A stretch of DNA of 64,000 nucleotides, from contig JAFWPH010000007.1 of the NCBI GenBank assembly GCA_017509605.1, forward strand, positions 1 through 64,000, in the 5' to 3' direction. The notes below the pieces were generated by a model that was given only the letters and a program-made list of their open reading frames with translations, was not told where the DNA came from and made no database searches. The translations under genes were made by a program, and so were the position numbers. The stretch is from Bacteroidaceae bacterium. Lineage in GTDB: Bacteria; Bacteroidota; Bacteroidia; Bacteroidales; Bacteroidaceae. Of this stretch, positions 31,311-34,154 are shown piece by piece; the first letter of the stretch is position 1; each line of letters begins with the position of its first letter.

Positions 31311-31340
31311 ACCGCCCCACATACGTCGGGGTGGTTTTTT
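31309..31340. terminator. Terminator between the 118-residue gene and the DUF4435 gene
   Basis: AAACCGCCCC pairs with GGGGTGGTTT (one G-T pair) around a 9-nt loop, followed by a run of Ts. It overlaps the stop of the plus-strand gene and abuts the stop of the convergent DUF4435 gene. Confidence 0.8.
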
Positions 31341-32416
31341 TAATGCCCCTGCTCATCTTCTTCTGTCAACTCCGCTTTCCCTGCATCAACAGCTTCAGAC
31401 CCGGCTGTTGTGCTGCCATTAATCCTCTCTATAAAACGTTTGATGTCCGCTTCAATCTGCTTGAACTGGGGACAAGACTTATATTCGGTATTACGGCGGA
31501 TGATCTGGTCTATCGGAATCTGGCTATGGTCATAACTCGACAGCTCATTGTTCATCTGAGTCCTGTGGACAGCCAAGCGTTTGATCTCTGTCTCACGCTG
31601 GCGACGCAAGGTGTTGCAGATAGGGTTGAGCGCCTGCATCACCACATTGTCCATCAGATGGTGGCCGTTGACGAACAAATAAACGTCGTCGGGGTTAACC
31701 CCAAGTTCGTACAGTTCGTTGGCGAGACTGACTAAGTGCTCTTTGGCATTAGGATACTTTCTCTGCAGGATGTTCAGTTCGTGATTCACTTTCCTGCGCA
31801 TCTTCTCCAAGGCCACCTCGGGATGGAAGGTGTTGAGATTGTTGATGGTCACAATGTTGTTGAAAGTGGTGATGGAGAAATCATTGCCACGTTTCTGGCG
31901 ATGAATCCAGATGGACCAGAGAAACAAATCATAGATGATACGGGAATAGGCTTTCAAGTAGTCCTCGAAACTGAAATACTCCCTATCGTTTAGAGTGGCC
32001 ATCACGCATACATTGTGGAGACTTGGGGCATAGCACTGGAAATTCTCAATGGCATAGACGTAAGTGTGGAACACGTAAGGGTTGTGCATGAAATACTTCT
32101 CACTGAATTCCGAACACCCTTGCATCAGGTAGTCATAGTCGGCATCCACACAGGCAATCATGCTCTTGCCGAGTTTGTCGCCCAAAGTGTTCATCAGCAC
32201 ACTTTTCTTACCGCGGGAAAGGTTGGAACGAGATGGCAGGCACACTTCGAACATCAGGCTGTCTGTCTCGTACTCTGACAAGATGTCACGCCAGAAGAAC
32301 ACGTCATCGTAACCCTCTACGTAGGCGATGACTTTTTTCTTCTTCTTGTTCGACTTCAGTTTGTTGGCGGCACTAAAGTACAGGGAGTTCAGATTGTCGG
32401 TGAGACGGCTTCCCAT
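31340..32416 (-). CDS. DUF4435 protein with TOPRIM-like nuclease core (AriB-like)
   Basis: A 358-residue protein. The N-terminal region has the acidic signature of a TOPRIM fold as found in OLD-family nucleases and DUF4435 proteins: Glu34 in AYVEGYDDVFFW and Asp91/Asp93/Asp95 in ACVDADYDYL. The rest is helical, with a Lys-rich N-terminal patch (KSNKKKKK). In PARIS anti-phage systems a DUF4435 TOPRIM protein (AriB) is encoded after an ABC-type ATPase (AriA) and acts as the toxic nuclease; the gene order here is the same, with the ATPase 84 nt upstream. A housekeeping role is equally possible, because no other defence or mobile genes are nearby. Confidence 0.82.
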   Translation of the reverse strand: MGSRLTDNLNSLYFSAANKLKSNKKKKKVIAYVEGYDDVFFWRDILSEYETDSLMFEVCLPSRSNLSRGKKSVLMNTLGDKLGKSMIACVDADYDYLMQGCSEFSEKYFMHNPYVFHTYVYAIENFQCYAPSLHNVCVMATLNDREYFSFEDYLKAYSRIIYDLFLWSIWIHRQKRGNDFSITTFNNIVTINNLNTFHPEVALEKMRRKVNHELNILQRKYPNAKEHLVSLANELYELGVNPDDVYLFVNGHHLMDNVVMQALNPICNTLRRQRETEIKRLAVHRTQMNNELSSYDHSQIPIDQIIRRNTEYKSCPQFKQIEADIKRFIERINGSTTAGSEAVDAGKAELTEEDEQGH

Positions 32417-32500
32417 ATTCTGTGGTATGATAAGGTTCCTTGGTCGTTACCAAACTTGGTTGCGGTGTGACCAAGATTTAATAGTTAGCTCTGGGAGGGG

Positions 32501-33331
32501 TTACAATGTCATGTCGCTTACCTCCGTCACGGTATCCATCCAGCCGTCCATAATCAACGCGGGCGAGTGGGTAGAGAGGATAATCTGGGAGTTGGGGTTG
32601 AGTTGGCGGATAATGCTGATGAGCCGTTTCTGCCATTCGATGTGCAGGCTGATTTCCGGCTCGTCCATGAGCAGGCAGTAGTGGTCCTTGTTCTCCACCA
32701 ACACCGTGAGCATGATGACAATCATCTGCTTCTCGCCCGACGACAACTGGTAGGGAGTCAGGTACTCGCCCCGCTGGATGAACTGAATCTCGTTGCTCTT
32801 GCGGTTGATGTGCTTGCCAGTCTCGCTGAACAAGTCATCCACCAGGTCCTGGAATTCAATCTTGGGCTTCATCACCTCCTGTGCCTTGAGCTGGTCTTCC
32901 GGAGTTCCACTGGTGAGTAGTTCTATCATGCGGTTGCCCATGTTGACCTGGTAGTCGAGGTATTTTTTCTGCAGACGGTAGATTTGCCAGTCGAGCTCAG
33001 TCTTCACTCGTGAGTCCGACATCTTCTCCATCAAGTCGCTGTGCATCAACGGGCGGTCGATGCTGCGGATCACGTCGAATTTCATGTATGTGGCATCCTC
33101 GGGATAAAGCTTCATGCTGATGCCGTCGCCAAGGTCGCTGGGCAATAAAGTCTCGTTGTGGTAGAGATTATTCAATCCATTGGCAGAGCGGTTGATAATC
33201 GTGCTCTTTCCCACACCGTTGATGCCACTGAGAATGTTCACGTCTGGCCGCAGGTGCCATACGATATGCCGGCCACCCTTCCATAGCGATTTGATCTCGA
33301 TGCTCTGTATGTATTCACCTTGTTTTTCCAT
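32501..33331 (-). CDS. Compact ABC/OLD-type AAA ATPase (AriA-like partner of DUF4435)
   Basis: A 276-residue soluble ATPase of the SMC/Rad50/OLD branch. Motifs: Walker A GINGVGKST (36-44), ABC signature LSSGEK (196-201), Walker B CLLMDEPE (219-226) and the H-loop STHSP (253-257). The inserted helical arm between Walker A and the signature is short (about 150 residues), with basic and acidic helices rather than a long coiled coil; known AriA-type ATPases are larger. It is encoded directly before the DUF4435/TOPRIM gene, so the two probably form one complex. It has its own promoter, divergent from a plus-strand gene. Confidence 0.88.
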   Translation of the reverse strand: MEKQGEYIQSIEIKSLWKGGRHIVWHLRPDVNILSGINGVGKSTIINRSANGLNNLYHNETLLPSDLGDGISMKLYPEDATYMKFDVIRSIDRPLMHSDLMEKMSDSRVKTELDWQIYRLQKKYLDYQVNMGNRMIELLTSGTPEDQLKAQEVMKPKIEFQDLVDDLFSETGKHINRKSNEIQFIQRGEYLTPYQLSSGEKQMIVIMLTVLVENKDHYCLLMDEPEISLHIEWQKRLISIIRQLNPNSQIILSTHSPALIMDGWMDTVTEVSDMTL

Positions 33332-33362
33332 AATGATGTGCTATTTTGTGGTTAGCTTTGTG

Positions 33363-33370
33363 CAAATGTA
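33363..33370 (-). promoter_or_regulatory. -7 promoter box for the ATPase-DUF4435 operon
   Basis: The minus strand reads TACATTTG followed by CA, 32 bp before the ATPase start codon. It is only 22 bp from the opposing -7 box at 33393-33400, so the two promoters overlap in their upstream elements. Confidence 0.6.
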
Positions 33371-33392
33371 GTCATTTGTCGGAAAATAATTG

Positions 33393-33400
33393 TATATTTG
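33393..33400 (+). promoter_or_regulatory. -7 promoter box for the methyltransferase-like gene
   Basis: TATATTTG followed by CC fits TAnnTTTG and lies 86 bp before the start at 33486, back to back with the ATPase promoter. Confidence 0.55.
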
Positions 33401-33485
33401 CCGATGAAATTTTACAGAAAAACTCATCATTCTTCTGATGAGGGTATCAGGATGAGGCTTTGAAAGATTCAAAAAAACTCATGGC

Positions 33486-34154
33486 ATGAAATATTGGATG
33501 AAAAGAGTGGCCACCTACCCCGCCCACCTGCGTCACAGACTGGGATTCGGGGTGCAGTCGCCCTGGGCGTTCTACCTCGTGAGATTTGTGCTCAGGGAGA
33601 AATGGCCTTTTTATGCCTTTGACGAATTGAAAAACCTCAGACGCCAACTGCCAAAGAATGCAGCGACCTTCACGCGGAAGCACGATGAGTGCCTCTTTCG
33701 GCTTGCCAACTGGTTGAAACCCAGCCAAGTGGTTGTGGTTGGCGATGACTGTCCTGCCTTGTCTGCCATTTATCTTGGTACGTATTCTAAACGCGTGGAG
33801 GTGAGTTGCCTGTGCGGCAACATGACCGAAGCCGAAAGAGAACTTCTGGAAAGCCACGGCGTCGATTGCCAATGTGGAGAAGTGATGACATTGCTGAAGG
33901 CCCTGTGTCCCGACACGGGTTTTGAATGTTTGCAGATAGCCCATAATGATGAAGCCTGGAACATCTACGACTATGCGGCAGACCATGTCAACAACAACAC
34001 CATGTTTGTGGTGGAGCATCTCAACACTCCCAAGGGCAAATTAGTATGGGAGAAGATCTGCATGGACAGTAGGGCCAGGACCACCTTCAACCTTGGACGC
34101 ACAGGCTTGGTGTTTTTTAACACCAAACGGTCGAGGATGAACTACAACCTTTAA
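33486..34154 (+). CDS. Methyltransferase-like Rossmann protein, conserved in Bacteroidales
   Basis: A 222-residue cytoplasmic protein. The N-terminal part (RHRLGFGVQSPWAFYLVRFVLRE) followed by a Rossmann-like strand-helix arrangement (VVVVGDDCPALSAIYLG) resembles a conserved Bacteroidetes family annotated as class I SAM-dependent methyltransferases. The glycine-rich SAM motif is not canonical (GDDCPAL in place of ExGxGxG), so it may be a degenerate or non-methylating member. The cobalamin adenosyltransferase gene begins 54 nt downstream. Confidence 0.7.
   Translation: MKYWMKRVATYPAHLRHRLGFGVQSPWAFYLVRFVLREKWPFYAFDELKNLRRQLPKNAATFTRKHDECLFRLANWLKPSQVVVVGDDCPALSAIYLGTYSKRVEVSCLCGNMTEAERELLESHGVDCQCGEVMTLLKALCPDTGFECLQIAHNDEAWNIYDYAADHVNNNTMFVVEHLNTPKGKLVWEKICMDSRARTTFNLGRTGLVFFNTKRSRMNYNL

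Follow-up and report, generated by a model that had tools for sequence, protein, structure and literature searches.

A resident PARIS-type ATPase and TOPRIM-nuclease gene pair in Bacteroidaceae, with a nuclease that may also act without its ATPase

We examined a two-gene locus within a window of 64,000 nucleotides from a Bacteroidaceae bacterium and read it as a resident, vertically inherited PARIS-type pair of an ATPase and a TOPRIM nuclease, in which the nuclease would also have a cellular role independent of the ATPase. We give this reading as a whole a probability of about 0.52. The pair consists of a compact AriA-like ABC ATPase gene (276 aa; 32501..33331, minus strand) and a DUF4435 (AriB-like) TOPRIM nuclease gene (358 aa; 31340..32416, minus strand), each identified using Pfam, PADLOC, and a fold model. 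Both ORFs were found where the first-pass annotation had placed them, with the DUF4435 gene 84 nt downstream of the ATPase gene (spacer at 32417..32500, minus strand, from the ORF coordinates). In most other genera the spacer is approximately 0-33 nt, and these distances are consistent with one operon.

The ATPase matched the Pfam families AAA_15 (8e-17, 62.3 bits) and AAA_21 (3e-16, 60.7 bits), as well as SMC_N. Its initial description as an ABC-type ATPase held up, as the Walker A (GINGVGKST, residues 35-44), LSSGEK (196-201), Walker B (D223/E224), and H-loop (H255) elements are all present and are invariant or nearly so across 35 orthologues. The predicted structure (mean pLDDT 87.3, from an alignment of 35 homologues) contains the small helical insert that had been proposed for this short protein, in the form of three helices (112-140, 144-153, and 155-167). 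The structure most similar to it, at the top of the list, was AriA (8ux9_B; Z 19.2, rmsd 3.5, 243 residues aligned, 21% identity), followed by PtuA and retron ATPases and then by SMC and Rad50 heads (Z 13-14). Since the 276 aa protein aligns almost end to end with the 464 aa AriA, it corresponds to an AriA core without approximately 190 residues. Such a short form is already in a public library, because the ATPase matches a 253-position PADLOC AriA model end to end (1.3e-55). We therefore ruled out an undescribed minimal ATPase, and the earlier suggestion of a minimal, undescribed variant falls with it.

The DUF4435 protein matched Pfam DUF4435 (5.8e-52, 177.2 bits) and PADLOC AriB (2.3e-60). 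The TOPRIM-like residues first noticed in the single sequence, Glu34 and Asp91/Asp93, proved to be invariant, together with D38, in 36 DUF4435 proteins and then in 34 more. The predicted structure (mean pLDDT 88.0, from an alignment of 36 homologues) is nearest to AriB (8ux9_A, Z 10.4, 241 residues aligned; 8v46_D, Z 10.2), and the next family in the ranking is that of the OLD TOPRIM domains (Z 4.6). The likeness to AriB is at the level of the fold only, with 8% identity, and neither single-sequence nor profile searches of the PDB linked the DUF4435 protein to AriB. The top PDB profile matches, haemagglutinin among them, had E values of 0.05 or worse and were rejected as chance.

The founding detection rule for PARIS asks for an AAA_15 or AAA_21 ATPase next to DUF4435, with thresholds of 32, 27, and 27 bits, respectively (PMC9122126, Rousset 2022), and the present adjacent genes score 62.3, 60.7, and 177.2 bits. 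The ATPase model has the AriA fold, with 8ux9_B as its top match, and the DUF4435 protein combines a predicted AriB fold (8ux9_A, Z 10.4) with the invariant acidic residues E34, D91, and D93. The gene order, both protein families, the TOPRIM residues, and the predicted folds thus bear out the original comparison with PARIS. In Escherichia coli B185, the PARIS genes likewise run from ATPase to DUF4435, belong to both families, and retain the TOPRIM acidic residues, and AriA and AriB are the closest solved folds (8ux9, 8v45-8v49). The pair differs from the B185 system in the length of its ATPase (276 aa versus the 464 aa of AriA), in resembling AriB only at fold level, and in that the nuclease persists in a sister family (f107, below) whose genomes mostly lack the ATPase. 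Furthermore, it is a chromosomal core locus family-wide and is neither patchy nor satellite-borne, whereas a patchy, defence-island, or satellite distribution is usual for PARIS, although not strictly defining. The PADLOC short AriA and AriB models (PDLC04164 and PDLC04165) share with the pair a short ATPase, a full-length match, and a DUF4435 partner, but the library says nothing of a family-core, vertically inherited locus. The alternative label of a split OLD system is the weaker comparison, since the OLD TOPRIM domain scores Z 4.6 and AriB Z 10.4. OLD and Gabija nucleases also combine an ABC ATPase with a TOPRIM nuclease, but they are single-chain DNA nucleases with a far weaker TOPRIM fold match; OLD carries both parts in one chain, whereas two separate genes are present here. 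The annotated neighbours of the pair, both in the window and in Bacteroides finegoldii, include no UvrD-like helicase partner of the Gabija type.

We surveyed 298 Bacteroidaceae species genomes, almost all of them with a completeness of 90% or more. DUF4435 was found in 290 of them and an ATPase match at 1e-12 in 292, counting a distant paralogue in G259 (2e-20). The pair is present in approximately 97% of the species, usually as a single copy, and counts as core, not patchy. Its close relatives belong to Bacteroidaceae/Prevotellaceae (Prevotella, Phocaeicola, Bacteroides, Alloprevotella, and Paraprevotella). The genomic surroundings of the pair are housekeeping genes, as was first suggested: the annotated neighbours include fumarase, an M16 peptidase, cobalamin adenosyltransferase, and an HflX-like GTPase in the window, and rsmA, meaB, and an MscS channel in Bacteroides finegoldii. 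Eight genomes had no DUF4435 match, and seven of these also lack a close ATPase; G200 was rejected as a DUF4435 loss because a contig ends at its ATPase. Loss is rare and removes both genes. One genome without the pair has a clean empty site (meaB-DMT-//-MscS), and five of the seven, which are related Bacteroides, lack the DMT-ATPase-DUF4435-MscS block beside meaB. With both genes missing from seven of 298 species, the pair is dispensable in nature.

The pair is vertically inherited in Bacteroidaceae. Across 29 genomes, pairwise distances correlate with those of rpoB for both DUF4435 (r=0.67) and the ATPase (r=0.53), and the two proteins correlate with each other (r=0.63); none of 2000 permutations reached the observed values. 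Both genes are under purifying selection: in close-relative pairs, the dN/dS of the ATPase is 0.02-0.03 and that of DUF4435 is 0.03-0.06. No match to the pair was found among 50,697 phage records. Two Bacteroides/Phocaeicola records labelled as plasmids match the pair or its DUF4435 (NZ_OY725943.1, our L197, and OY726067.1). The former, from B. finegoldii, bears ftsH, rsfS, rsmA, and meaB and is therefore probably a mislabelled piece of chromosome. With no phage matches and a B. finegoldii "plasmid" that looks chromosomal, an origin on a mobile element or plasmid was rejected. The first-pass annotation had held that its proposal would be refuted by a conserved housekeeping Bacteroidales clade distant from all defence families, or by a DUF4435 structure lacking a TOPRIM metal site. 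A conserved, vertically inherited Bacteroidales clade at a housekeeping site is indeed what we find, but the fold lies near a defence family and the TOPRIM residues are intact.

Separately, one genome (G013:C26:22153-23525, L061) carries a second, divergent ATPase-DUF4435 pair (24-33% identity) beside the core pair, which is probably a mobile PARIS. Another (G010:C14, L058) has a divergent pair (27-37% identity, with a 379-aa ATPase frame) where the usual pair is absent, possibly as a replacement. Two contigs with Bacteroidaceae-type DUF4435 in records titled Roseburia and Clostridium (L119 and L159) are probably mislabelled metagenome bins.

The evidence that the nuclease can be kept on its own comes from a second Bacteroidales family (f107), in which DUF4435 was found in 59 of 60 genomes and strong ATPase matches in only 11. 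The ATPase adjoins DUF4435 in five of these (G557, G558, G561, G568, and G572). G563, G573, and G580 have the two genes on the same contig at a distance of approximately 51-153 kb, and G559 and G586 have them on separate contigs; in G569 the ATPase match is split across contigs, with one piece adjoining DUF4435. This leaves approximately 48 f107 genomes, including the single-contig genomes G560 and G605, with DUF4435 and without a recognisable ATPase. A phylogenetic tree places the 20 sampled orphan nucleases in a single clade (SH-aLRT 99) that lies among relatives with the ATPase, so a single loss of the ATPase suffices to explain them. E34, D38, D91, and D93 are kept in all 20 orphans, and 12 of 13 family-invariant residues checked are identical in all 20, the other being T118, which is S in G564 alone. 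The dN/dS of three f107 orphan pairs was 0.09-0.11, a level that is somewhat above that of the paired DUF4435 and allows for mild relaxation of constraint.

Within a reference set of ATPase-bearing DUF4435 proteins that takes in proteins with an unlinked ATPase, 56 positions are at least 90% conserved, and 47 of these remain so in the orphans. L5, S11, Y13, A16, and G83 show 0-5% identity in the f107 orphans. The simplest reading would be that the N-terminal helix of DUF4435 (approximately residues 5-16 of the window's protein) contacts the ATPase. Such a contact would indirectly favour an arrangement like that of PARIS, in which an AriA hexamer sequesters AriB. In distant two-gene relatives from other families, only Y13 of this N-terminal motif is well kept. 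We would like to note that the orphans are a single clade, and loss of the motif together with the ATPase thus counts as one event and not as a repeated correlation.

The same two activities also occur in one chain. DUF4435 was found in 48 of 247 genomes across the order Bacteroidales at large, and in 75 of 79 genomes of the Bacteroidales family f26 (26 genera), almost always as one frame of approximately 490-630 aa. Sampled fusions from f26 and other families keep the EG...DRD TOPRIM pattern, and one received the PADLOC call AriAB. These AriAB fusions (approximately 520-545 aa; PADLOC PDLC02982) are core in f26, and their ATPase halves are related to the ATPase of the pair (hhalign 98.5%), but they are deeply diverged, and a Bacteroidaceae DUF4435 profile misses them. 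Single-gene ATPase-DUF4435 fusions of approximately 520-540 aa were also observed in several Bacteroidales families (L198-L209 and L215).

The AriA of E. coli sequesters AriB until it senses a phage protein, and AriB, once freed, acts as a tRNase with a two-metal TOPRIM site (PMC12409363). By analogy, the small AriA-type ATPase may bind and control the AriB-type nuclease, probably through the N-terminal helix, and a nuclease thus released or activated would cut host RNA, most likely tRNA, so that translation would be slowed or stopped. The everyday role of the nuclease might lie in RNA processing, turnover, or a stress response, and the ATPase would then regulate the nuclease. An ATPase-independent role is the most likely explanation because the pair is nearly universal and the f107 nuclease retains intact catalytic residues. 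Deletion of ariA in E. coli is non-toxic and abolishes defence (PMC9122126), so a nuclease without the ATPase is not expected to provide PARIS-type defence, and its retention in ATPase-less genomes argues for an additional, ATPase-independent role. Of the two options first offered for the locus, a resident stress system is the better one: the locus is resident, but a stress response is only one of the roles proposed. A broader reading, which we offer tentatively and at less than even odds, is that DUF4435 is a quasi-core Bacteroidales nuclease with an everyday RNA role and a separable ATPase regulator, and that it is the mobile PARIS systems that are relatives of the resident form, and not the reverse; it would span at least three Bacteroidales families, in which DUF4435 occurs as a pair, a solo gene, or a fusion.

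The main rival to our reading is that of a genuine PARIS anti-phage system, fixed in the Bacteroidaceae ancestor, in which the ATPase would sense a phage protein and free the DUF4435 tRNase for abortive infection and nothing else. The pair scores above the founding detection thresholds and has AriA and AriB as its closest folds, the strict co-retention and co-loss of the genes in Bacteroidaceae are as for a two-part defence, and a stable, useful defence could also become fixed in a family. We nevertheless consider this somewhat unlikely, given the presence of the pair in 97% of species, mostly as a single copy at a housekeeping site under purifying selection, versus a reported PARIS prevalence of 5.2% of genomes (PMC9122126), and given that no phage carriage was detected. 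An f107 nuclease with intact residues and no ATPase is also hard to square with a role solely as the effector of AriA.

A DNA repair or replication enzyme, whose SMC/Rad50-related ATPase and TOPRIM nuclease would act on DNA ends or structures as in OLD, seems improbable to us. The ATPase does match Rad50 and SMC heads (Z 13-14) and SMC_N, the OLD TOPRIM domain is the second fold match of DUF4435 (Z 4.6), and OLD proteins cut DNA (PMC10568477); however, both proteins are nearer to AriA and AriB than to any DNA-acting relative, AriB cuts tRNA, and no recognised DNA-repair gene lies next to the pair in the annotated neighbourhoods. That some lineages have lost the pair, and that G010 has a divergent pair instead, would suit a remnant, selfish or in decay, that no longer has a function, but catalytic residues invariant across families and dN/dS of 0.02-0.11 contradict this, frames are open in the sampled orthologues, and retention is vertical, making a remnant very improbable indeed.

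Earlier surveys reported PARIS, as a defence system, in 20% of MAGs from the gut, most of them Bacteroidales (PMC10924106). Searching the literature by the name DUF4435, we found no study of this locus in Bacteroidaceae, nor did the papers searched give an account of PARIS as a family-core locus. If our reading is correct, dominant human and animal gut bacteria carry a PARIS-type nuclease as standard equipment, which would explain why PARIS is found in 20% of gut genomes and hardly in soil or sea, and counting the locus as acquired phage defence may mislead. The locus would then allow the relation between a cellular nuclease and an anti-phage effector to be tested, and the nuclease with and without its ATPase provides a natural experiment pointing to a short contact site at the N-terminus.

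The pair had also been credited with a promoter of its own. A candidate Bacteroidota -7 promoter box, TACATTTG, lies upstream of the ATPase gene (33363..33370, minus strand) and is kept as TAyATTTG in four congeners. The -33/-7 pattern TTTG-N17..23-TAnnTTTG had no match near the ATPase gene, and a promoter function for this box is thus only suggestive. The short gap between the ATPase gene and its divergent neighbour (33332-33486) contains promoter-like TAnnTTTG elements on both strands, and the neighbour itself (33486-34154), transcribed divergently from the ATPase, is a gene of unknown family.
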